Assembly: GCF_003477995.1 (NCBI RefSeq) | Contig: NZ_QUEM01000035.1 | Coordinates: 1 to 31,433 of the forward strand | From: Bacteroides sp. OF04-15BH | GTDB taxonomy: Bacteria; Bacteroidota; Bacteroidia; Bacteroidales; Bacteroidaceae | DNA: 31,433 nt | Direction of reading: 5' to 3' | Shown: positions 3,102 to 31,433 of the stretch, one piece after another | Layout of the letters: the number at the start of each line of letters is the position of its first letter | Numbering within the stretch: the first letter of the stretch is position 1 | Translations under genes and position numbers: made by a program | The notes under the pieces: generated by a model | What the model was told of the DNA's origin: nothing | The model's database searches: none | The model's input: only the letters and a program-made list of their open reading frames with translations

Positions 3102-5624
3102 ATGATTGGAAACAAAATGAGAGGTGTGATGCTCTTTTCGTTGGCATGGGCCATGAGCCTGAATGCCCAGACACGTACGGAGCGTTTACTCGAAAAGGGT
3201 TGGACTTTTACCAAAGGAGACAGTACTGTTTATTCGGCAGTAGATTTTAATGACAAAGGATGGCAAAAAGTAACAATCCCACACGATTGGGCTATTTACG
3301 GTCCTTTCAGTATTGATAATGACAAGCAGAACACTGCCATTCAGCAGGACGGACAGAAAGAGGCTATGGAGCATGCCGGAAGAACCGGAGGTTTGCCTTT
3401 TGTGGGCACCGGCTGGTATCGTCTGGATCTGAAGGTTCCTGAATATACCGCAGGAAAGAAGTGTGTGCTGTTGTTCGACGGAGCCATGAGCCATGCCCGT
3501 GTGTTCATCAACGGAAAGGAAGCCGCATATTGGCCTAACGGATACAATGCCTTTATGGTAGATGCTACGGATTACCTGAAACAGGGAGAAACCAATGTAC
3601 TGGCCGTACGTCTGGAGAATGAGAACGAGTCTTCCCGCTGGTATCCCGGTGCCGGACTTTATCGGAATGTCCGTCTGATTGTTACTGACGATGTGCATGT
3701 TCCGGTTTGGGGTACGCAGTTGACCACTCCGGTTGTGCAGGAAGATCATGCCAAGATTCTCTTGAAAACCAAATTGGAATTCCCCAAGGACAAGAAGTTA
3801 AACGATTATAGAATTGTTACCGAAATTAAGGATGCAGCAGGTAAGGTGGTTGCTACCAACGAGCGTGAAGGAGGTGCCGATGGTGTATTTGCCGGTGCCA
3901 ACACCTTTGAGCAGGAACTGGTTGTAGCCGATCCTCAGTTGTGGTCGCCCGAAACTCCGGTGCTCTACACGGCTGTGTCTAAAATCTACGAAGGCAGCGA
4001 ACTGAAGGACGAGTATGAGACTCCGTTCGGAATCCGTACGTTGGAGATTATACCGGACAAGGGATTTTTCCTGAATGGCAAACCGTTGAAGTTTAAGGGA
4101 GTCTGCAACCATCATGATCTCGGACCTTTGGGAACGGCTACAAACGAAGCGGCACTTCGCCGTCAGATCCGAATCATGAAGGATATGGGCTGTAATGCCA
4201 TCAGAACTTCGCACAACATGCCTTCTACCGAGCTGGTGCGTATCTGCGACGAGATGGGTATGATGCTGATGCTGGAATCCTTCGATGAGTGGCAGACAGC
4301 CAAGGTGCAGAACGGATACCATAAGTATTTCAAGGATTGGGTGGAAAAGGATCTGGTGAATCTGGTGCATCATTTCCGCAACAATCCGAGTGTGGTGATG
4401 TGGTGTATCGGAAACGAGGTGCCCGATCAGTGGAACGGACATGTAGGTGCCAAGCTGACCCGCAAGTTGCAGGACATCTGTCATCGTGAAGATCCTACCC
4501 GTCCGGTGACATTGGGAATGGATGCTCCCGATGCGGTGGTCAACAATAATATGGCAGCCGTATTGGATGTGCCGGGCTTCAATTACCGTCCGCACAAGTT
4601 CCAGGAGAATTATGCCAAGTTGCCGCAGCAGATCATTTTGGGTAGCGAAACGGCATCTACGTTGAGTTCACGTGGAGTATACAAGTTCCCGGTTGAGCGT
4701 CGTTCGATGATGAAGTACGATGACCACCAGGCTTCTTCTTACGATGTGGAGCACTGCTCTTGGTCAAACCTTCCGGAGGACGATTTCATGCAGCACGAAG
4801 ACAATCCATACTGCATCGGAGAGTTCGTATGGACCGGATTCGATTATCTGGGCGAGCCTACACCTTATTACTCTGATTGGCCAAGCCATTCTTCTCTGTT
4901 TGGTATTGTCGATCTGGCCGGTATTCCGAAAGACCGTTACTACCTGTACCGCAGTCATTGGAACAAGGAGAAAGAAACCCTGCATGTGTTGCCGCACTGG
5001 ACCTGGACCGGTCGTGAGGGCGAGGTGACTCCGGTATTTGTCTATACCAATTATCCGTCTGCCGAGCTCTTCATCAATGGCAAGAGCCAGGGCAAGCGCA
5101 CCAAGGATACCAGCGTGACCATCGACGGCAGCAAGGACGAGAAGTCGCAGAAAGAGTTCAAGCGCCAGAGCCGTTACCGCCTGATGTGGATGGACACCAA
5201 ATACGAGCCCGGAACGCTGAAGGTGGTGGCTTATGACGAGCAGGGCAAGGCTGTGGCCGAGAAGGAAATCCACACCGCCGGCAAGCCATACCGCATTGTG
5301 CTGAGCGCCGACCGCGATACGATCACTGCCGATGGCAAGGATCTTTCTTTTGTTACGGTAAGTGTGGTAGATAAGGATGGCAATCTCTGTCCGAATGCCG
5401 ACAATCAGATTTCCTTTAAGGTGAAGGGAGCCGGTACTTATCGTGCGGGAGCCAACGGTGACCCGACCAGTCTGGAGTCCTTCCAGAAACCTCAGATGAA
5501 GGTGTTCTCCGGAATGATGACCGCCATTGTCCAGTCCGAAGAAAAGGCCGGAACCATCCGTCTGGAAGCTTCTTCCAAAGGATTGAAGAAAGCGGAAATT
5601 ATTATCCGCAGTGAGAAGAAATAA
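3102..5624 (+). CDS. Secreted GH2 glycoside hydrolase (beta-galactosidase type)
   Basis: The 840-residue protein starts with a signal peptide ending LNA|Q near residue 22; M6 is an alternative start. The GH2 order is visible: sugar-binding jelly roll (about 25-195, with HDWAIYGPF and the GTGWYR and RWYPGAGLYRNV blocks), Ig-like domain (200-312), and TIM barrel (about 313-610). CIGNEV carries the acid/base E439, ILGSET carries the nucleophile E516, and WTGFDYLGEPTPY is the conserved late barrel motif. The C-terminus has a DUF4982-like domain (about 635-725) and an invasin/Ig-like domain (about 730-836). It probably cleaves terminal beta-galactosides (possibly another beta-glycoside) in the periplasm or at the cell surface. 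No SusC/SusD pair lies nearby, so it is an orphan rather than part of a visible polysaccharide locus. Confidence 0.9.
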   Translation: MIGNKMRGVMLFSLAWAMSLNAQTRTERLLEKGWTFTKGDSTVYSAVDFNDKGWQKVTIPHDWAIYGPFSIDNDKQNTAIQQDGQKEAMEHAGRTGGLPFVGTGWYRLDLKVPEYTAGKKCVLLFDGAMSHARVFINGKEAAYWPNGYNAFMVDATDYLKQGETNVLAVRLENENESSRWYPGAGLYRNVRLIVTDDVHVPVWGTQLTTPVVQEDHAKILLKTKLEFPKDKKLNDYRIVTEIKDAAGKVVATNEREGGADGVFAGANTFEQELVVADPQLWSPETPVLYTAVSKIYEGSELKDEYETPFGIRTLEIIPDKGFFLNGKPLKFKGVCNHHDLGPLGTATNEAALRRQIRIMKDMGCNAIRTSHNMPSTELVRICDEMGMMLMLESFDEWQTAKVQNGYHKYFKDWVEKDLVNLVHHFRNNPSVVMWCIGNEVPDQWNGHVGAKLTRKLQDICHREDPTRPVTLGMDAPDAVVNNNMAAVLDVPGFNYRPHKFQENYAKLPQQIILGSETASTLSSRGVYKFPVERRSMMKYDDHQASSYDVEHCSWSNLPEDDFMQHEDNPYCIGEFVWTGFDYLGEPTPYYSDWPSHSSLFGIVDLAGIPKDRYYLYRSHWNKEKETLHVLPHWTWTGREGEVTPVFVYTNYPSAELFINGKSQGKRTKDTSVTIDGSKDEKSQKEFKRQSRYRLMWMDTKYEPGTLKVVAYDEQGKAVAEKEIHTAGKPYRIVLSADRDTITADGKDLSFVTVSVVDKDGNLCPNADNQISFKVKGAGTYRAGANGDPTSLESFQKPQMKVFSGMMTAIVQSEEKAGTIRLEASSKGLKKAEIIIRSEKK

Positions 5625-5636
5625 AAAATGACCTGT

Positions 5637-5690
5637 AAAAGTTTTCTTGTGCTTCCCTGTTTCCGGGGAAGACAGGAAAACTTTTCATTT
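5637..5690 (+). terminator. Hairpin terminator after the GH2 gene
   Basis: Arms 5637-5657 and 5666-5685 pair almost completely (10 bp perfect at the base, one wobble and one bulged G further in), followed by a T-rich stretch. The hairpin starts 12 bases after the GH2 stop. It overlaps an in-frame upstream extension of the next gene, which argues that gene starts at 5709. Confidence 0.8.
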
Positions 5691-5708
5691 TTAAAACCGT
5701 CTGATTTT

Positions 5709-6803
5709 ATGAAACGTTTTCGGTATGCGATACGTCAGTTTCACCGATGGTCGGGTTTGCTGGTTGCGATTCCTTTTGTTGTGATCAGCATTACGGGAGC
5801 CTGTCTGGCTTTTGAACCCCAGTTCCTTCGGCTGATGCATTCGGAACTTTATGAGCTTCCCCGGCCTTATGCAGCGGGCGAAGTTTCCATCCGCTCCGTT
5901 TCCGAAAAGGTAGAGCGGCAGTTGCCCGTCGGGATGACTTTAGGCGCCTTGCAGATCGGTCGGCCTGATGAAGCCTGGATTTATGAGATCAGCAGCATGC
6001 GCAAGGCCGAGCTGTTTGTCGACCCTTCATCCGGAAAGATTCTGGGAATGATTGACCACGATCAGGGAGGCTTCTATCAGTTGCGGAAGCTGCACCGCTG
6101 GTTGGGCGATACGCTCAACCGGGAGAGCGATGCGCCGTGCGTCGGTCGGATTGTCGTCGGTGTGTTTACGGCCTGGAGTATTCTGGTGATTCTTTCCGGA
6201 TTCTATCTGTGGTTTCCCCGAAGCCGCAAGTCTTGGGCTCTGCGTTTCCGTTGGCCCGGATGGAGTGCGTCGGGATATGCACCCGAGTATCAGCGTCACA
6301 CTCTGATAGGAATCTGGTGCGGTGTTCCGGTAATCGCTCTGGCACTTACCGGACTGACCTGGTCTTTTCCGGCGTATCGTGACGGTTTCTTTGCCTTATG
6401 GGGAGCCGATTACAGTCAGCGCAAAATAAAGTCTGCTGAGGCGGACACGACAGACTGCCGGTATTTATGGGATCAGGCATGGCCTTTGATCCGTCAGGCA
6501 CATCCGTCTTTGAAGAAAGTGCAATTTGAAGAAACGGCGGTAGAGGTTACCTCCTTGCGTCCTTTTCCCGGGATTACCGTAACAGACCGCTATTTGTTGT
6601 CGTCGGCTTCCGGAGGGCTGAATTCTTTTCCTCGTGAGGCGGAGCGGGCACGCAATGTCCGTTCCGGAATCGTGCTGGTGCACGAAGGGCTTTGGATGGG
6701 ACTGTTCTCGCAATGTCTCACTTTTCTTTGGGCCTTGTCCGGCGCTTATCTTTCCTGGTCGGGCGTTCGTTTGTGGAGGTATCGCAGATTGCGGAAAAAA
6801 TAG
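5709..6803 (+). CDS. PepSY-associated transmembrane (PepSY-TM) protein
   Basis: The 364-residue inner-membrane protein has four predicted helices: about 17-35, 146-168, 200-220 and 333-353. The PepSY-TM signature is visible as FHRWSGLLVAIPFVVISITG near the N-terminus and KLHRWLGDT before helix 2. Histidines H12, H129, H197 and H325 sit at membrane edges and could ligate heme or metal. A PepSY-like region (VDPSSGKILGM) lies in the first large extracytoplasmic loop. Related Bacteroidetes proteins are often linked with iron-siderophore reduction or uptake, but no such partner is seen here, so the role is open. The start at 5709 was chosen because the longer frame from 5628 would be translated through the terminator hairpin. 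Confidence 0.8.
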   Translation: MKRFRYAIRQFHRWSGLLVAIPFVVISITGACLAFEPQFLRLMHSELYELPRPYAAGEVSIRSVSEKVERQLPVGMTLGALQIGRPDEAWIYEISSMRKAELFVDPSSGKILGMIDHDQGGFYQLRKLHRWLGDTLNRESDAPCVGRIVVGVFTAWSILVILSGFYLWFPRSRKSWALRFRWPGWSASGYAPEYQRHTLIGIWCGVPVIALALTGLTWSFPAYRDGFFALWGADYSQRKIKSAEADTTDCRYLWDQAWPLIRQAHPSLKKVQFEETAVEVTSLRPFPGITVTDRYLLSSASGGLNSFPREAERARNVRSGIVLVHEGLWMGLFSQCLTFLWALSGAYLSWSGVRLWRYRRLRKK

Positions 6804-6936
6804 AATTTGAAGTGTTTTTCAAATGATCTCGATGAAATGAAAAAATGATTGAGATCATATTGTAAAATCATCAGCATCATTTTTCAGGTTCTTCAGATAC
6901 TGTTGTTCTTTCAGAAAGTTTCTTTGGAGAAGAAGG

Positions 6937-6979
6937 AAAAAAGGAGTTGCTTCACCATGCGTGAGGCAACTCCTTTTTC
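6937..6979. terminator. Bidirectional terminator between convergent genes
   Basis: An 18-bp stem (6938-6955 with 6961-6978, only a G-U pair inside) closes on a CATGC loop. It has A residues on one side and T residues on the other, so it works in both directions. It serves the PepSY-TM gene from the left and the DUF308 gene from the right. A weaker imperfect stem lies at 6822-6859. Confidence 0.85.
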
Positions 6980-7064
6980 TATCCTGTATTCTTCAGCAGA
7001 GCGGTTCACCTTACATGCAATTCCTTCTTTATCCGGGAATCGCAGCATGATTGTATCTTGTTGC

Positions 7065-7619
7065 TTACTGCTGTTTCTGCAATTTATTGAATTCCTTCTG
7101 TGCTTTCTTGATGCGCACTCCATTGATCAGTTCGGCTATTCCGTAGAAGATGGAGGTATAACCCAGAATCAGGAAAGGCAGGGAAGCGGTTTCCATCGGT
7201 TTGAGCAGGATGAGCAGTCCCATACCCAGTACGGCCAGTGAGAACACATACATATACCACGCAATCCGGATGATCTTCCGGAATTTGATGAACGTGAAAA
7301 TCTGGTTGGCACCCGCCAGCATGATGATGATTCCCAGCACAAACATCAGATAGGCGATGAACAGTTCCGGAAATACGGCCATGAAAATACCGAAAAGAAA
7401 ACTGCCCAGTCCCACAATCGGGAATACCGGTTTGTAATATACCTCCTTGCTTTTGGTGGCAATCAGATAATTGATGAGCGAGTAACATCCGGAGATTCCA
7501 AACAGGATGCCGATAATCATGACCAGCGCCACCGTCATGCGTTCCGGATTCAGCACCAGAAGCAGACCGATAAGAATGGAGCAGAGTGCTCTGAATATAA
7601 AACTATTCGTATAATTCAT
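7065..7619 (-). CDS. HdeD/DUF308 family membrane protein
   Basis: The 184-residue protein is mostly membrane helices: six hydrophobic segments of about 20 residues, arranged as repeated pairs with GI, GL and NP motifs typical of DUF308 (for example IGLLLVLNPERM, VLGIIIMLAGANQIF, GLLILLKPMETASLPFLILG). The C-terminal tail (RIKKAQKEFNKLQKQQ) is charged and probably cytoplasmic. The start at 7619 (MNYTNSF) is chosen because a TATGTTTG promoter box lies just upstream at 7646-7653; the longer frame would start inside or before it. E. coli HdeD is linked to acid resistance, but the role in Bacteroidales is unknown. It stands alone between two terminators. Confidence 0.8.
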   Translation of the reverse strand: MNYTNSFIFRALCSILIGLLLVLNPERMTVALVMIIGILFGISGCYSLINYLIATKSKEVYYKPVFPIVGLGSFLFGIFMAVFPELFIAYLMFVLGIIIMLAGANQIFTFIKFRKIIRIAWYMYVFSLAVLGMGLLILLKPMETASLPFLILGYTSIFYGIAELINGVRIKKAQKEFNKLQKQQ

Positions 7620-7645
7620 AATGGTAGTTGTTTTAGAGATTGATA

Positions 7646-7653
7646 CAAACATA
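7646..7653 (-). promoter_or_regulatory. Candidate -7 box for the DUF308 gene
   Basis: Read on the minus strand this is TATGTTTG (TAnnTTTG), 27 bases before the ATG at 7619. No good TTTG -33 box is visible. Confidence 0.4.
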
Positions 7654-7727
7654 CGAAAAAAAACAGACCGGTGAAAGGTTTTCTGCGGAAAAACTGTTTC
7701 CCTGAACACCGGATACAGAACAAAAAA

Positions 7728-7762
7728 CTCCGGTTCCCACCAGGAAGTGTAGAGAACCGGAG
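7728..7762 (-). terminator. Terminator of hydA
   Basis: A 9-bp perfect stem (7728-7736 with 7754-7762) is followed on the minus strand by TTTTTT (complement of 7722-7727). It lies 66 bases downstream of the hydA stop. Confidence 0.8.
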
Positions 7763-7828
7763 ATTTATATTTTCAGTCTGTAAAAGTCTGGTCTCAGGAA
7801 TAAGTTTCCCGTGTCTGACGTTTACGGA

Positions 7829-9280
7829 TTACTGACCTTCTTTCTTTTTCAGCTCGGCATCGAACTGACGGATGGCCTGCATACCCTCGTTGCATGCGCA
7901 AGGACCGCTGATACAGCCGCCCGGGCAAGCCATTACCTCGATCATCTTTGTCGGGCACTTGCCGGTCTTGGCATAAGCGCGCAGCTGACCGATAGACTTC
8001 TTGTCCAGGTTGGCTATGATAGTTCCCTGCATGGTCTGGTCGCCTACCATATTCTTCACGGCAGTGAACACACCACCGGTCTTTGCAAAACCGTGTGCGT
8101 CGTGTCCGGCATGCTCTTCCGGCAGGAAGTCCTCGCAATCGTCAATCTTGATGTCCAAGCCTTCCAATACAGCCTCTACCTCGCGGAAAGTCCATACGAA
8201 ATCCACATTCGGATTCTTGTTTCCTTCGGCACGCTTGGAAGCACAAGGAGCGATGAACACATTGATTCCGTCCGGATATTTCTTGCGTGCATACTCAGCG
8301 ATGTAATACATTGGAGAACCAGTGGTAGAAACATAAGGTTTCATGTCCGGAATATGCTTGTTGACCAGTTCTACATAAGCCGAGCAGCAGCTGGTGGTCA
8401 TAAACGGAGCACCTTCTTCCATTCTCTCCTTGAACTCGGCAGCCTCGTTGCGGATGGTCTCTTCGGCACCGTAAGCCACCTCAAGAACATCGTCGAAACC
8501 GATGGCCTTGAAAGCACCCAATACCTTTTCGATAGGCTGTTTGAACTGAGCCAGGATAGAAGGAGCCACCATGGCAACCACTTTCTTTTCCTTCTTCTTG
8601 ATTTCCTTCAGCACATCGAATACGCAGCATGCGTCGAAGATGGCACCAAACGGACAAGCGTTCATACACTTGCCGCAGTAGATACACTTCTCCGGATCGA
8701 TATGTTCCACTCCGTACTCGTCCTTTGAGATGGCCTTTACCGGGCATGCCTCTTCACAAGGCACAGGGATATAGACGATAGCGTGGTACGGACATACCTG
8801 ATGACATTTGCCACAGCTGATACAAGTATCGTGGTCAATCACTGCCTTTCCGTCGTGGTCGTAAGAAATGGCATTCTTCGGACAGTTGTTGTAGCAAGAC
8901 TGGGCTGCACAACCGCGGCACAGATTACTAACCTCGTAGTTGATCTTCACGCAAGAAGAGCAGGCCTCGTCCATCACGCTCAGGATGCTCTTGTTCGGGC
9001 GCAGGCCGTTGCGGTCGAGCATCTTCTGGGCATAGCTGGAGAGCGGTTCGTTTTCGTCCTTCTCATCCTCCATGTCGAAGCCCATCATGGCCATGGTTTT
9101 ATACTTGGTTACGGCGCGTTCCTTGTAAACGCAGCAACGTCCCTTTGGCTTTTGTTTGCGCGGATGCAACTCGATGGGGAGACCGTCGATTTTTTCCAGC
9201 AACTCGTCATTTTTCCACATTTTTACCAGTTTAGCCAGCAACTGGTATCGAATGTACATAATATTATTTGTGTATGCCAT
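7829..9280 (-). CDS. hydA: Monomeric [FeFe] hydrogenase with N-terminal ferredoxin-type clusters
   Basis: The 483-residue enzyme interconverts protons and H2, taking electrons from ferredoxin, and probably disposes of fermentation reductant. The N-terminus is cysteine-rich: CSSC (107-110), CRGC (121-124), then two 4Fe-4S motifs CX2CX2CX3C (C153/156/159/163 and C199/202/205/209). The H-cluster domain shows TTSCCSAY (C298, with C299 as the likely proton-relay cysteine), APCASKRAE (C346) and MACPGGCISGPC (C452 and C456), so all four cluster ligands are present. The L1 motif reads SCCSAY rather than the usual SCCPxW, and L3 ends GCISGPC rather than GCxxGGGQP; this fits the monomeric group B-type enzymes reported in Bacteroides (recalled, not searched). 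The start at 9280 is preferred because 9322 falls on a promoter box. The maturases are divergent at 9510. Confidence 0.93.
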   Translation of the reverse strand: MAYTNNIMYIRYQLLAKLVKMWKNDELLEKIDGLPIELHPRKQKPKGRCCVYKERAVTKYKTMAMMGFDMEDEKDENEPLSSYAQKMLDRNGLRPNKSILSVMDEACSSCVKINYEVSNLCRGCAAQSCYNNCPKNAISYDHDGKAVIDHDTCISCGKCHQVCPYHAIVYIPVPCEEACPVKAISKDEYGVEHIDPEKCIYCGKCMNACPFGAIFDACCVFDVLKEIKKKEKKVVAMVAPSILAQFKQPIEKVLGAFKAIGFDDVLEVAYGAEETIRNEAAEFKERMEEGAPFMTTSCCSAYVELVNKHIPDMKPYVSTTGSPMYYIAEYARKKYPDGINVFIAPCASKRAEGNKNPNVDFVWTFREVEAVLEGLDIKIDDCEDFLPEEHAGHDAHGFAKTGGVFTAVKNMVGDQTMQGTIIANLDKKSIGQLRAYAKTGKCPTKMIEVMACPGGCISGPCACNEGMQAIRQFDAELKKKEGQ

Positions 9281-9321
9281 AATGAATAACAGTAATTGGG
9301 TTTGAGTATACAATTGGTGCA

Positions 9322-9329
9322 CAAAAATA
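9322..9329 (-). promoter_or_regulatory. Candidate -7 box for hydA
   Basis: The minus strand reads TATTTTTG (TAnnTTTG), 42 bases before the ATG at 9280. A convincing -33 TTTG is not seen. It shares the 229-base divergent region with the hydE promoter. Confidence 0.4.
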
Positions 9330-9478
9330 ATGAAAAAAAGTATTTTTTAAAAGATGCAGCCACTTTTATTTCCCGCTTCTCCCTGTTTTTGATTACTGCT
9401 TTGTGTGTTTTTATAAAAAAAGCGAATCCGGCCTACTATTTTTTAATGATTCTTGCGCGTGTTCTATATAAGAATTGA

Positions 9479-9486
9479 TAACTTTG
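9479..9486 (+). promoter_or_regulatory. Candidate -7 box for hydEGF
   Basis: TAACTTTG matches TAnnTTTG and ends 23 bases before the hydE ATG at 9510. A weak -33 candidate (CTTG) lies at 9452-9455. The close spacing implies a short leader and rules out the upstream in-frame ATG at 9453 as start. Confidence 0.5.
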
Positions 9487-9509
9487 TAATCATTTTAATT
9501 ATAGACTTT

Positions 9510-10574
9510 ATGTATGATTCGATAAATGACTCCACGCTTGAGGCCTGGGTGGGTACGCTCAGCCGCGGAGAGAGTCTGGGGCGTGAAGACTATCTGCGCC
9601 TGCTTTCGCTGTCCGATCACGACCAGCTTGCCTGGCTGATGGGACAGGCACGTGCTGTGGCCGACCGTGAGTTTGGCCGTGGTGTCTACATCCGCGGACT
9701 GATCGAGATATCCAACCACTGCAAGAACGGCTGTTATTATTGCGGCATCCGTAATGCCAATGCCTGTGTGGAGCGCTATCGTCTTTCGTCCGAGGAAATC
9801 ATGGCCTGTTGCCGTCAGGGATATGAACTGGGCTTCCGCACCTTTGTGCTTCAGGGGGGAGAAGACCCGTTTCAGGATGACGACTGGCTGTGCGAGGTCA
9901 TCGCCCGCATTAAGGAGGAGTATTCCGACTGTGCCCTGACACTGTCTGTCGGTGAGCGCAGCGAGCAGGCTTACGAACGCTTTCGCCGGGCCGGGGCCGA
10001 CCGCTATCTGTTGCGTCACGAAACGGCCAATGCGGTGCACTATTCCATGTTGCACCCAGAGAGCATGTCCTTTGAAAACCGGATGCTCTGTCTGCGCACC
10101 CTCAAGGCCCTGGGATTCCAGACCGGTGCCGGCATGATGGTCGGTTCGCCGGGACAGACCCTGGAATGTCTGGTGGATGATTTGCTGTTTTTGGAGGCCT
10201 TACAGCCGCAGATGATCGGCATGGGGCCTTTCATTCCCGCGCCGCACACTCCGTTTGCCAAGGAACCGGCCGGCAGTGTGCCGCTCACCCTGTTGCTGCT
10301 TTCGGTGCTCCGTCTGCGCTTTCCACGCGTCCTGCTGCCCGCCACGACGGCCTTGTCGACCCTCGACCCGCAGGGACAGGAGAAAGGACTGTTGGCCGGA
10401 GCCAATGTGATTATGCCCAATCTGTCGCCCCTGACGGTGCGCCGCAAGTATGCGCTTTATGCCGACAAGAAGTATCTGGGCAACGAGGCGGCCGAGCAGA
10501 TCGGGCGTCTGGACGAGAAACTGAAAAAGATCGGTTTTCATATAAGTTACGAGAGAGGAGATTTTAAACCATAA
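9510..10574 (+). CDS. hydE: [FeFe] hydrogenase maturase HydE (radical SAM)
   Basis: The 354-residue radical SAM protein helps build the diiron subcluster of the hydrogenase active site, working before HydF loading. The SAM-cluster motif CKNGCYYCGIR (C71, C75, C78) is intact. It is followed by the GG-type SAM motif LQGGEDP and by LLRHETAN, typical of the HydE/biotin-synthase-like fold, then MMVGSPGQT and GMGPFIPAPHTPFA, which is characteristic of HydE. It is the first gene of hydE-hydG-hydF, 11 bases ahead of hydG. The start was moved from 9453 to 9510 because the -7 box lies at 9479-9486. Confidence 0.93.
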   Translation: MYDSINDSTLEAWVGTLSRGESLGREDYLRLLSLSDHDQLAWLMGQARAVADREFGRGVYIRGLIEISNHCKNGCYYCGIRNANACVERYRLSSEEIMACCRQGYELGFRTFVLQGGEDPFQDDDWLCEVIARIKEEYSDCALTLSVGERSEQAYERFRRAGADRYLLRHETANAVHYSMLHPESMSFENRMLCLRTLKALGFQTGAGMMVGSPGQTLECLVDDLLFLEALQPQMIGMGPFIPAPHTPFAKEPAGSVPLTLLLLSVLRLRFPRVLLPATTALSTLDPQGQEKGLLAGANVIMPNLSPLTVRRKYALYADKKYLGNEAAEQIGRLDEKLKKIGFHISYERGDFKP

Positions 10575-10585
10575 CACATAATAAC

Positions 10586-12007
10586 ATGATATATAATCTG
10601 AAATCATTACGAGCAGAAGAATTTATCAGTCACGAAGAGATTCTGGCTACTCTGGAATATGCGCGGGAGCATAAGAACGACCGCGAACTGATTCTCTCCA
10701 TTCTGGAGAAAGGCGAACAGATGCAGGGCATCACCCATCGTGAGGCCGCCGTGCTGGTTACGGTGGAAGACCCGGAACTGACCGAGCGCATGTTTCATCT
10801 GGCACGCCGCATCAAAGAGCACATCTATGGCAACCGCATCGTGATGTTTGCTCCGTTGTACTTGTCCAACTATTGTATCAACGGCTGTGTCTACTGCCCT
10901 TATCATGCCAAGAACAAGACCATTCGCCGCAAGAAACTTTCACAGGAGGAAATCCGTCAGGAAGTGATAGCCTTGCAGGACATGGGTCACAAGCGTCTGG
11001 CTCTGGAAACAGGCGAGGACCCTAAGAACAACCCGATAGAATATGTGTTGGAGAGCATCAAGACCATCTACGGTATCAAGCACAAGAACGGTGCCATCCG
11101 ACGCGTGAATGTAAACATTGCCGCTACCACCGTAGAGAACTACCGCCGTCTGCACGATGCCGGCATCGGTACTTATATCCTGTTCCAGGAAACTTATCAT
11201 AAGGAGAACTACGAACGTCTGCATCCAACAGGACCCAAGAAGGATTATGCCTACCACACCGAAGCTATGGACCGCGCCATGCAGGGCGGTATTGACGATG
11301 TGGGACTGGGTGTTCTCTTCGGTCTGAACAACTATGCCTACGATCTGGTGGGCCTGTTGATGCACGCCGAGCATCTGGATCAGACCTATGGCGTGGGACC
11401 GCATACCATCAGTGTGCCTCGTCTCTGTCCGGCCGATGATATTGATACCAAGGATTTTGAGAACTGTCTGCCCGATTCCATTTTCCATAAGATTGTGGCC
11501 GCCATCCGTATCGCCGTGCCTTATACCGGCATGATCATCTCAACCCGTGAGAGTAAGGCCAGCCGGGAGAAGGCGCTCGAACTTGGAGTTTCCCAGATCA
11601 GTGGCGGATCGCGCACCAGTGTGGGCGGTTATGTGCACGAGGAGAGTGCCGAAGAGAATTCCTCACAGTTTGATGTGAGCGACCGCCGTACACTGGACGA
11701 GATTGTGGGCTGGCTGCTCGATTTGGGCTATGTGCCCAGCTTCTGCACGGCCTGCTATCGTGAAGGACGCACTGGCGACCGCTTTATGTCGCTGGCCAAA
11801 CGCGGACAGATTGTGAACTGCTGTGCCCCGAATGCGCTGATCACCCTGAAAGAATATTTGCAGGACTATGCTTCGGAGCCTACCAAGGCCAAGGGCGTGG
11901 AAATGATTCGCCAGGAAATTGCCAAGGTGCCTAACCCGGTTATCCGTGAGCGCGCCGAGCGTTTCCTTCAGGAAATCGAGCAGGGAGCACGCGACTTCCG
12001 TTTCTGA
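10586..12007 (+). CDS. hydG: [FeFe] hydrogenase maturase HydG (radical SAM tyrosine lyase)
   Basis: The 473-residue enzyme splits tyrosine to supply CO and cyanide on iron for the H-cluster. The radical SAM motif is CINGCVYC (C97, C101, C104), and ALETGEDP follows as the SAM-binding glycine motif. The HydG-specific C-terminal cluster motif CX2CX22C is visible as C387, C390 and C413 (SFCTACYREGRTGDRF to VNCC). The length is normal for HydG, and ThiH lacks this tail arrangement. It sits 11 bases after hydE and 56 bases before hydF, so it is in the same transcript. Confidence 0.95.
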   Translation: MIYNLKSLRAEEFISHEEILATLEYAREHKNDRELILSILEKGEQMQGITHREAAVLVTVEDPELTERMFHLARRIKEHIYGNRIVMFAPLYLSNYCINGCVYCPYHAKNKTIRRKKLSQEEIRQEVIALQDMGHKRLALETGEDPKNNPIEYVLESIKTIYGIKHKNGAIRRVNVNIAATTVENYRRLHDAGIGTYILFQETYHKENYERLHPTGPKKDYAYHTEAMDRAMQGGIDDVGLGVLFGLNNYAYDLVGLLMHAEHLDQTYGVGPHTISVPRLCPADDIDTKDFENCLPDSIFHKIVAAIRIAVPYTGMIISTRESKASREKALELGVSQISGGSRTSVGGYVHEESAEENSSQFDVSDRRTLDEIVGWLLDLGYVPSFCTACYREGRTGDRFMSLAKRGQIVNCCAPNALITLKEYLQDYASEPTKAKGVEMIRQEIAKVPNPVIRERAERFLQEIEQGARDFRF

Positions 12008-28948: not shown

Positions 28949-29749
28949 ATTGTTTCCCAAATAAAATACAACGAAAGGCGCAAAAAAATGTGAACGCTTG
29001 CCGGGGCATTATGACAGACGGTTCTGCTTATCCGCTTGCATTCTGCTGCCGTTTGGCCGGAATCCCTGACAGACACCTTTTTCAAACCGAGTGTTTTAGA
29101 AATCTTCCTGAATAAATATGCGGTATAATGGGCTAAGAAAACTGCATATATACGGGGTTTATACAAAAATGTTACGAAAATGCGGAGCGCTTACCGCGCT
29201 CCTTCGCCCCAAACAGCACGGTGGTTGCCGGAAATCACCACGGTGGTTTTCTGAATTGCCCGGGATGAAGTGCAAGAATCATCGTGATGCCTGCTTTTGA
29301 AGGCTGGAAAAGTAAAAGTTTTTGTCTTTCTTTTTCCGGATGAGGCGTGCGTGAGTGTGCGGGTTTTGTGCTTATCTGTTTGGTGTATAGTTTGTTGTGG
29401 GGATATTTGCTTGTTGAGAATCGTGTTTTTGAGAGTTTTGTGGGTTGGGGTGTGAGGAATGGAAGTTTCAGAGGGTGGTTTTGACAAAATGACAGAAGAG
29501 GGAGTTGGGGGAGGTAAGTAAAGTATATATTGGAAAACAATAATAATTCGCAATGGGAAATAGGACATTACTTTAATGAGTTCTGTCCTATTTCCTTGTA
29601 ATATTACTTTCTTTTTACTTTACTTGTCACATGGGCTTTTATCCTGTATTTTTGTCATAATCGTATTAATGTTTATATTGATGATGGTAGAAAACGAATG
29701 GTGATCTCTATAATCTTATTGATTCTGAAAAGAAATATTTGACTTGTTA
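28949..29749. other. Gene-free interval of about 800 bases before the recombinase
   Basis: No credible gene is seen; the frames present have low-complexity translations and no motifs. It contains a 7-bp GC-rich stem (29184-29190 with 29196-29202), a repeated CACGGTGGTT around 29218 and 29242, a G/T-rich, C-poor segment (about 29340-29520) and a 12-bp inverted repeat (29556-29595). Base composition changes from moderate GC to AT-rich across it, which may mark the edge of an acquired region. Confidence 0.5.
29556..29595. repeat. 12-bp perfect inverted repeat downstream of the recombinase
   Basis: Arms 29556-29567 and 29584-29595 are exact reverse complements with a 16-base spacer. It lies 155 bases beyond the recombinase stop. 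There is no T tract on the minus strand, so it is a poor intrinsic terminator and could instead be a protein-binding or recombination site. Confidence 0.6.
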
Positions 29750-30556
29750 TTACCATGTTATAATTTTGTCGACAATCTCTTGTTGTTCGGCACTACTACG
29801 TCTCAGATAAATTCGGGTAGTTTCTATGCTTTCATGCCCCATTAAATCTGCAAGCAAAGAAATATCGTTGAATTTTTCTAAGAAATTTTTGGCAAAGCGA
29901 TGTCGGAATGAATGAGGGTAAACTACTTTCTCATTCAAGCCATATTTGATTGCATAGTTTTTTAATTGTTGCGCTATTCCTCTGGTAGTGATACGTTCAC
30001 CGAAGCGATTAAGAAAAAGATACCCAGTAGCTCGATTGGCTATACCAAGCCATTCTGTGGCTTCTTTACGTAAGGTTTTCGGAATATAGATACGGCGTAT
30101 TTTGCCACCTTTGGTGTAGATGTCAAAATAACCGATTTGAACGTGTTCCACCTTCATTTGTATTAATTCGCTAACTCTGGCTCCTGTGGCTGCAAGGAAA
30201 CGAACTACGAAATACCACTCTTTGTTCTCCTCTTTTTTGAGTTTATTCTTGAAAAAAATATAGTCGGCATTGCTGATTACATTTTCCAGATAGCTACGCT
30301 GTTGTACCTTGACGGATTTTAATCTCAAACGAGATTTTCCTATGCTTTCAAGATACTTGTTTATTGCCTGAATACGAAGATTTACAGTTTTAGGCTTGAA
30401 TTTTTCAATAAGGTAAGTTTTATACACAAGTAGGTTACGCTTATTCAGTTCTTTGTGTCGGGAATAGTATTCTCTTACGGTATAGAGATAAGCTGCAATC
30501 GTGTTCTCCGCCATATTTCCTTGATGGAGATACATTTCAAAATTTTCAATATTCAT
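29750..30556 (-). CDS. Tyrosine recombinase (site-specific integrase/invertase)
   Basis: The 268-residue recombinase has an N-terminal SAM-like core-binding domain (about 1-85, NMAENTIAAYLYTVREYYSRH) and a catalytic domain with the full residue set: R127 (ATGARVSEL), K152 (TKGGKIRRIYIP), H215 and R218 (PHSFRHRFA), H241 (LMGHESIETT) and Y250 (RIYLRRSS). It should be active. The size is small, without the extra arm-binding domain of phage or ICE integrases, as in invertases that shuffle neighbouring genes. Its gene is back to back with hsdS, the start codons overlapping by two bases (30555-30556), and hsdS partners of this kind are classic substrates. The start at 30556 (MNIENFEM) is preferred over 30592. 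The AT-rich composition differs from the genes to the left. Confidence 0.93.
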   Translation of the reverse strand: MNIENFEMYLHQGNMAENTIAAYLYTVREYYSRHKELNKRNLLVYKTYLIEKFKPKTVNLRIQAINKYLESIGKSRLRLKSVKVQQRSYLENVISNADYIFFKNKLKKEENKEWYFVVRFLAATGARVSELIQMKVEHVQIGYFDIYTKGGKIRRIYIPKTLRKEATEWLGIANRATGYLFLNRFGERITTRGIAQQLKNYAIKYGLNEKVVYPHSFRHRFAKNFLEKFNDISLLADLMGHESIETTRIYLRRSSAEQQEIVDKIITW

Positions 30557-31433
30557 GTTTGATACATTATTAGTTAAACAATTCACTATCAATAATAATG
30601 TATACTATTTACAAATCAATAATTCCTATTATGAGAAGTTTCTTGCTACTGGGAAGGTGAAATGTATTGATGACGAGATTCCGTTTGAAATTCCCCAGGG
30701 GTGGGAATGGACGCGTATCGGTAATATTTTTAATCATACAAGTGGAAAACAGCAAAGTAGTAGCAACAAAAATGGCGGAACTCCACAGAAATTTATTACT
30801 ACATCCAATCTTTACTGGGGGTATTTTGTCCTTGATAATGTAAAAGTTATGAATTTTACAGAGAAAGAGATAAAAACTAGTTCTGCTACTAAAGGCGATT
30901 TACTTGTTTGTGAAGGAGGAGCAGGTTACGGTCGTTCTGCGATTTGGAATTATGATTATGATATTTGTCTTCAAAATCATATTCATAGATTGAGACCGCT
31001 TGTTGATGGCACTTGTGAATATGTATATTATTTTATATATCTACAAAAGGAGAGTAATAATCTAGCTTCTGTAGGAACAGCTATGCCAGGACTTTCTGCC
31101 AATAGGTTGAAAAATTTACTGATACCACTACCGCCTATAGTAGAACAGAATAGAATTACAAATAAACTTAAAGAAGTATTTACTGTGGTCGAGAAATATG
31201 ATAAGGTGCAAGAAGAACTAAACCTCTTAAACTCTTCGCTCAATGAAGTTATCAAAAAGAGCATTTTACAAGAGGCAATCCAAGGAAGGCTTGTATCACA
31301 AATTATAGAAGAAGGCACAGCGCAAGAATTGGTTGAACAGATACAGCTGGAGAAACAGAATCTTGTTAAAGAAGGCAAGCTTAAAAAGTCAGCTTTGACA
31401 GATTCCGTTATCTATAAAGGTGACGATAACAAG
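30555..31433 (+). CDS. hsdS: Type I restriction-modification specificity subunit HsdS, partial (probable silent or invertible cassette)
   Basis: The frame is open from an ATG at 30555 to the window end (293 codons, no stop). Residues 1-24 (MFDTLLVKQFTINNN...) match nothing I know. From residue 25 the protein reads as HsdS: YYEKF, DDEIPFEIPQGWEWTRIG, a target-recognition domain, GLSANRLKNLLIPLPPIVEQNRI (PLPP from 191), then the coiled spacer ending EGKLKKSALTDSVIYKGDDNK. The closing GDDNK is the usual lead-in to a second YYEK..EIPFEIP block, so the window stops at the junction with the next recognition domain. The frame begins abruptly at that same junction motif (INNSYYEKF), lacks a normal HsdS N-terminus and has no visible promoter. 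This suggests a 5'-truncated cassette exchanged by the adjacent recombinase. HsdS sets the DNA target of the HsdM/HsdR complex. Confidence 0.8.
   Translation, partial: MFDTLLVKQFTINNNVYYLQINNSYYEKFLATGKVKCIDDEIPFEIPQGWEWTRIGNIFNHTSGKQQSSSNKNGGTPQKFITTSNLYWGYFVLDNVKVMNFTEKEIKTSSATKGDLLVCEGGAGYGRSAIWNYDYDICLQNHIHRLRPLVDGTCEYVYYFIYLQKESNNLASVGTAMPGLSANRLKNLLIPLPPIVEQNRITNKLKEVFTVVEKYDKVQEELNLLNSSLNEVIKKSILQEAIQGRLVSQIIEEGTAQELVEQIQLEKQNLVKEGKLKKSALTDSVIYKGDDNK
30562..30603. repeat. 11-bp perfect inverted repeat between the recombinase and hsdS
   Basis: Arms 30562-30572 and 30593-30603 are exact reverse complements separated by 20 bases. It lies immediately upstream of the recombinase start and inside the first codons of the hsdS frame. 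ATCAATAAT is also directly repeated at 30588 and 30615. It is a candidate recombinase-binding site or operator. The spacer is longer than the 6-8 bases of a simple tyrosine-recombinase core, so an operator role is equally possible. Confidence 0.6.

Follow-up and report, generated by a model that had tools for sequence, protein, structure and literature searches.

The recombinase gene and the silent hsdS cassette

The window analysed here, a 31,433-nt stretch of DNA from Bacteroides sp. OF04-15BH, carries at its right-hand end a gene for a PsrA/CreX-like tyrosine recombinase (29750..30556, minus strand) and, divergent from it, the start of an hsdS frame. Read from its ATG, the recombinase has 268 aa; an alternative TTG start lies upstream at 30592. 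A Pfam domain search matches the protein to PF00589 (E = 3.7e-29). In an alignment of 86 sequences that includes the window's, H215, R218, H241 and Y250 are found in all 86, and R127 and K152 are kept in 85, the window's again among them, with one gap at each position in the remaining sequence. The tyrosine recombinase catalytic set is complete in the window gene, which has no internal stop; the initial annotation had described a complete small recombinase with these six residues, and both the Pfam match and the alignment agree with it. Over its 268 aa the protein is 63.4% identical to one annotated psrA on an S. dysgalactiae plasmid. The nearest solved structures by sequence are Xer-type recombinases for this protein and type I S subunits for hsdS, and the family assignment of both is settled by the sequence matches. 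Between the chromosome genes and the recombinase gene, at 29556-29595, lies a 17-nt inverted repeat with a 6-nt loop that looks terminator-like by eye.

On the plus strand, the first 810 bases of the hsdS frame (30624..31433) are open up to the window end, where the frame is cut. PF01420 matches residues 47-211 of the ORF from 30555 (E = 1.3e-15), corresponding to about 30693-31187 on the plus strand. Farther along, the central conserved region (31269..31433, plus strand) has 82% DNA identity to a Phocaeicola plebeius silent copy; relatives have a second repeat (IR-B) here. Likeness to other hsdS copies begins at the TCC codon at 30624, which bears out the earlier description of a frame starting at a recognition-domain junction. 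The frame had also been described as showing no TAnnTTTG promoter, and none is present on the plus strand of 30300-30660, nor on either strand around the 66-bp spacer (30557..30622) that separates the recombinase start from the recombination site and lies outside the expected invertible segment.

The start codons of the two genes had been annotated as overlapping, and the two shared bases are there. However, the ATG at 30555 is probably not used as an hsdS start, because silent copies mostly have an in-frame stop upstream of the site. With hsdS copies classed as active or silent by a GDDN-type motif just before the site, 36 of 40 silent-class copies have such a stop within 25 codons, compared with one of 22 active-class copies; the four silent-class copies without it are the window's, L030, L061 and one copy of L051. 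The window's silent hsdS copy, probably without its own start, agrees with an inverting type I restriction-modification locus: as the initial annotation supposed, 30624-31433 on the plus strand is the beginning of a truncated cassette, cut by the window end.

A predicted recombination site constrained at the DNA level

The predicted recombination site, TTCCT plus ATTATGAGAAG, occupies 30623..30638 on the plus strand and matches the consensus exactly. When up to three mismatches are allowed, 0.44 chance matches are expected in the whole window and two are found, one being this exact match. The site opens the counterpart of the first repeat shared by relatives (IR-A; 30623..30711, plus strand), which leads into the first recognition domain. 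An inversion boundary had been proposed within or beside the recombinase start; it is placed not in that start but at 30623, 66 bp upstream of the recombinase ATG, and by analogy with a mapped Enterococcus site the crossover is expected inside 30623-30632. There is no inverted repeat of the cassette within 29000-31433 of the window, where one member only can lie, and the cassette's partner must therefore lie beyond the window. Judging from relatives, the window's silent copy would be opposite in orientation to the active copy.

Opposite hsdS copies with common repeats are present in 26 of the 27 related loci checked for inverted repeats; L007, with one copy, has none. The first repeat, located where the first recognition domain begins, usually measures 66-124 bp, falling to 16-30 bp in L019, L033, L034 and L041, and the middle repeat (IR-B) usually measures 170-280 bp. 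Among the 22 loci aligned, TTCC[CT]ATTATGAGAAG opens the first repeat in active and silent copies alike, and the sequence to its left is unrelated (in L051, the offset between active and silent copies is two bases out). The inverted repeats that the initial annotation expected are therefore present in relatives and begin at the predicted place. In 20 TTCCY pairs, identity between active and silent copies is 20-30% upstream, 98-100% from −5 to +9, and 82-94% from there to +64. Additional evidence for the site came from codon choice at 62 sites, picked by protein motif alone from 39 sources: the second Tyr is TAT, Glu is GAG and Lys is AAG in 62 of 62 cases each. Since these codons are invariant while neighbouring Glu and Lys codons vary, the constraint acts on the DNA.

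The site and the recombinase also occur together across genomes. Among 251 Bacteroidaceae genomes, 13 have the 16-mer, 23 have a recombinase match (E ≤ 1e-80) and 12 have both (Fisher p = 1.7e-13); the site is found in one of the 228 genomes with no recombinase match, and a reversed-pattern control of the site has 0 occurrences in the 251. The loci used for site discovery overlap these genomes, so the association tests specificity and not discovery, and its informative part is the rarity of the site elsewhere. Recombinases in the genomes that have only the recombinase are 62-76% identical, except for that of G002 (94%), whose site (L002) is one mismatch off. A 16-mer scan of a viral collection returned 17 contigs, in five of which tblastn matched a recombinase or an hsd gene. 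Of the contigs filed as viral, L115 has hsdR, hsdM and hsdS, and L119 has a 79% identical recombinase with the site.

Locus layout in relatives

A recombinase scan of one genome per species (84,980 species) yielded 118 loci, the best 80 of which were retained. The neighbours predicted for the window (hsdR, hsdM and a second, opposite hsdS) are found in close relatives: where the recombinase is at least 78% identical and the full 10 kb on the hsdS side is available, 20 of 22 loci have the order hsdR-hsdM-hsdS(+)/hsdS(-)-recombinase. The two exceptions are L038, in which no hsdS was found, and L045, which adjoins an Eco57I-type gene. An annotated Segatella hominis plasmid has the identical layout, the window corresponding to its recombinase-proximal end. 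As a point against an inverting hsdS system, searches with tblastn detected no hsdS near the recombinase in L038, L043-L046, L048, L052 and L057, each with at least 8.9 kb of flank.

Cassette families occupy both active and silent slots. The silent domain of the window shares 87.5% identity with a domain in the active slot of Parabacteroides chinchillae (L005) and 83% with one in the silent slot of Prevotella corporis (L018). Among 56 distinct cassettes, 66 cross-locus pairs reach at least 50% identity; 34 are active-silent, 22 silent-silent and 10 active-active, where a slot-blind expectation from 23 active and 32 silent cassettes is 32.7, 22.0 and 11.2, with the reservation that related pairs are not independent. 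In L006 (7508-8543), extra hsdS-like fragments lie between two hsdS genes together with further CAAGT sites, which may give this locus more than two second domains to draw on.

Some recombinases of the family have other neighbours. In L043, L044 and L045, at about 3800-10800 of each locus, the recombinase is 76-78% identical to that of the window and has as its neighbour an ORF of about 1305-1321 aa, which in L044 matches an Eco57I methylase and a ResIII helicase in Pfam. These loci have inverted partial copies of the large ORF that start near its NPPY motif, and two site classes with different five-base tags, TAAGT+ATTAT[AG][AG]GAAC and A[TC]GCT+ATTAT[AC]GGAAA, bracket the inverted Eco57I-type gene fragments. 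This looks like an inverting single-chain restriction-modification gene, and since the sites bracket fragments of such a gene, hsdS is not the only partner of this recombinase family. In L052 (4500-9800), a 71% identical recombinase lies beside glycine-rich ORFs (ALK_LTK_GRD in Pfam) in both orientations, with inverted similarities.

Rearrangement in Enterococcus faecalis plasmids

Evidence for alternative arrangements came from ten E. faecalis plasmid records, nine of which have a recombinase 65.5% identical to the window's; the tenth, L129, has none in the stretch examined. Near-identical records differ by clean inversions in six pairwise comparisons (e.g. L124 versus L128 and L121 versus L126), and the inversions end at sites of the form CGCCT+ATTAT[GA]AGAAG. 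The ten records hold 55 sites in all. In the CGCCT class, three left flanks are joined to four right sides, with 10 of the 12 combinations seen; for the TTTAC/TATCC class, three left flanks and two right sides give five of six combinations. The right side of one class never stands behind the left flank of the other in the ten records. L125 has TATCC in both members of a pair where other records have TTTAC. In every CGCCT case, the variant at arm position 6 travels with its domain, which places the crossover of this class within the ten bases CGCCTATTAT. An inverting type I system with an integrase and inverted hsdS copies, as here, has been described in E. faecalis (PMC7394358); the plasmid loci compared here, with 5-mers TTTAC/TATCC and CGCCT, may or may not be that system.

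Proposed mechanism and comparison with known systems

We estimate a probability of about 0.9 that the recombinase, silent cassette and site are part of an inverting hsdS system that switches methylation. In this model, the recombinase would act where each recognition-domain cassette begins, on a short site made up of five bases plus ATTATGAGAAG, and the DNA between an active hsdS and the silent, opposite hsdS beside the recombinase would be inverted. Inversion at TTCCT sites would swap the first recognition domain, and CAAGT sites would probably swap the second; because a recognition domain is swapped, the methylation and restriction motif of the cell would change. By analogy with relatives, the window recombinase would invert DNA at its predicted site, and we infer that the window strain has an active partner and switches. 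The initial annotation stated that hsdS genes beside such recombinases invert, and this is supported by the Enterococcus plasmid arrangements and by the experiments of others on PsrA/CreX (PMC6620402, PMC7096588).

This kind of system is already known: there is an established literature on inverting type I loci with PsrA/CreX, and a REBASE survey reports inverting type I systems in many species (PMC7394358). In the Streptococcus pneumoniae cod/spnIII (Spn556II) locus, where PsrA and CreX are the same protein, the recombinase lies beside silent hsdS copies, as in the window. The pneumococcal site consists of 5 bp plus the core ATTATGGGAA, and flanking sequence upstream of IR1 is needed too (PMC6620402, PMC7096588, PMC4948785). 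All three repeats have this conserved core, with CTCTT in front of it in the 15-bp and 333-bp repeats and GAAAC in the 85-bp repeat (PMC6620402). In vitro, PsrA inverts between all three repeat kinds, the sequence upstream of IR1 being needed in vivo (PMC7096588). The window differs from pneumococcus in its core, ATTATGAGAA, in its 5-mers (TTCCT and, in relatives, CAAGT) and in its Bacteroidaceae host. Its core departs from the published pneumococcal core at one of ten bases, and its site is of the roughly 15-bp kind that marks these systems; its closeness to PsrA (63%) refers to the protein annotated as such in S. dysgalactiae. CTCTT also occurs in loci titled Clostridia, Gastranaerophilales, Tannerella, Bacteroidales and Ruminobacter and on a Ruminococcus plasmid, and GAAAC also occurs in the S. 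dysgalactiae locus.

Two further systems have been compared. The hsdS "Shufflon BB" of Bacteroides fragilis (BF1839-1842) and its relative in 638R resemble the system proposed here in their Bacteroidales host, in hsdS domain shuffling and in a tyrosine integrase by the last hsdS (PMC3090145). The printed 38-bp repeat, the one compared among the four repeat sets there, lacks ATTATGAGAAG, the best placement leaving 4 mismatches in 11. The window was also considered as a member of this shufflon; it does not carry the printed 38-bp repeat at its site, and its arm has at least four mismatches in 11 bases to that repeat. In Streptococcus suis SsuCC20p, hsdS domain shuffling on short repeats likewise depends on a recombinase (xerD), but the 14-bp repeats, TAAATCATCATTTA and TAAATGATGATTTA, which form identical sets for the cassettes, are a different site from the window's (PMC10790761). 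Full-text literature searches found no paper with TATGAGAAG together with hsdS.

General homologous recombination between the longer repeats could instead swap the domains, with little part for the recombinase. The long IR-B repeats of relatives are consistent with this possibility, as are pneumococcal data showing that the 15-bp inversion is strictly CreX-dependent but that loss of CreX leaves the inversion rate of the 85-bp repeat unchanged and the 333-bp repeat still inverting (PMC6620402). Since these two repeats invert without CreX, not all of the switching has to depend on the recombinase. The pneumococcal inversions are nonetheless RecA-independent according to the same source, identity in relatives peaks over 16 bp and not over the whole repeat, and for one class in Enterococcus the crossover is narrowed down to 10 bp of the site. 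We therefore give homologous recombination as the main cause a low, though not negligible, probability.

The window end and strain variability

The inverting system proposed here would continue to the right of the window, whose sequence ends in ...GGTGACGATAACAAG. The last four bases, CAAG (31430..31433, plus strand), are the first four of the second site class, CAAGT plus arm, and the window stops inside it. Of 47 strings GGTGA[CT]GATAACAAG in the loci, 45 go on with TA[TC]T..GAG, i.e. with this second site class. The arm of the CAAGT class is less uniform, ATTATGAGCAG and ATTGGGAGAAG being the commonest; the same enzyme presumably serves these sites. In 42 loci with a recombinase at least 78% identical, contig ends within 1.5 kb fall 16 times on the hsdS side versus four times on the other (p 0.012); in 38 more distant loci, where hsdS is often on both sides, the counts are 12 versus seven (p 0.36, not significant). 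The window end is probably an assembly break at the switching region.

G143 and G184, the closest to the window among 399 genomes, have about 94-97% DNA identity over the left flank, and both lack the site and a recombinase match (E ≤ 1e-80). Collinearity of G143 with the window ends at 29510, where other genes follow; the contig of G184 stops about 1 kb past its last match to the window. Because close genomes are without the site and recombinase and G143 carries other genes past 29510, the locus looks like an accessory island in the window's lineage.

These absences, and the fact that the window shows no other parts of the locus, would also fit a decayed remnant, in which the recombinase and half an hsdS were left after loss of the remaining locus. 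We consider this improbable, given that the recombinase retains all catalytic residues without an internal stop, no stop interrupts the cassette frame between 30624 and the window end, the site is an exact consensus, and the window stops inside a second site, where the locus would continue. Very improbable, too, is a mobile-element integrase merely sitting beside an ordinary hsdS. Many integrases are tyrosine recombinases, the locus varies between strains, and one relative is on a plasmid near other integrases. On the other side, 20 of the 22 well-covered relatives have the two genes next to each other in the same orientation, both hsdS frames contain the shared site, whose DNA sequence is frozen, and the protein is 63-65% identical to the annotated PsrA and to the recombinase of the rearranging Enterococcus loci.

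A possible five-base address

Beyond an inverting hsdS system as such, the five bases before the arm could be an address shared by the two sites of a pair and recognised through base-pairing as strands are exchanged. A single recombinase would bind the same arm throughout, and only sites with the same tag would recombine, so that cassettes for the first domain would go into first-domain slots alone and those for the second into second-domain slots alone. This portable two-address design would apply to loci titled Bacteroidales, Treponema, Clostridia, other Bacillota, Fibrobacter and Ruminobacter, and to the Eco57I-type gene. We regard this reading, taken as a whole, as an even bet.

The idea is suggested by 5-mers that match within a pair and differ between pairs of one locus. 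In 41 pairs from 38 loci, paired by downstream similarity alone, the five bases before the arm are identical in 39; 86 loci entered this test, and a locus needed at least two usable arm sites to yield a pair. The two discordant pairs, in L055 and L061, disagree because pairing by downstream identity chose a site of another class. Two different 5-mers, each in both orientations, occur in 19 of 81 loci, and one such 5-mer in 25, counting sites that lie up to 6 kb from the recombinase and have no more than one mismatch in the arm. A context-filtered census, which lost many sites, has an address in both orientations in 27 of the 33 loci with at least two filtered sites.

Several observations argue against a strict rule. 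In L062 (CTACT/TTGTT) and L072 (CCGAC/CAGGC), the two members of the second pair have plainly different 5-mers, and the in vivo result for the pneumococcal GAAAC repeat (PMC6620402) does not favour CreX acting there. Within-pair identity of the 5-mers could also stem from shared ancestry, which pairing by downstream similarity lessens but does not remove. Full-text literature searches found no statement of the address idea, PMC6620402 coming nearest, and it is possibly a new point.

Implications

If the address reading is true, the difference between CTCTT and GAAAC in pneumococcus would serve to lock the register, beyond any mere weakening of the site. One enzyme could then serve register-locked cassette exchange, and the domain repertoire of a locus would be sortable by short site tags. 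The analysis assigns to a gut-type Bacteroidaceae lineage a methylation system that varies between strains and is probably switchable, and supplies an exact 16-base marker for finding such loci, even where assemblies break.
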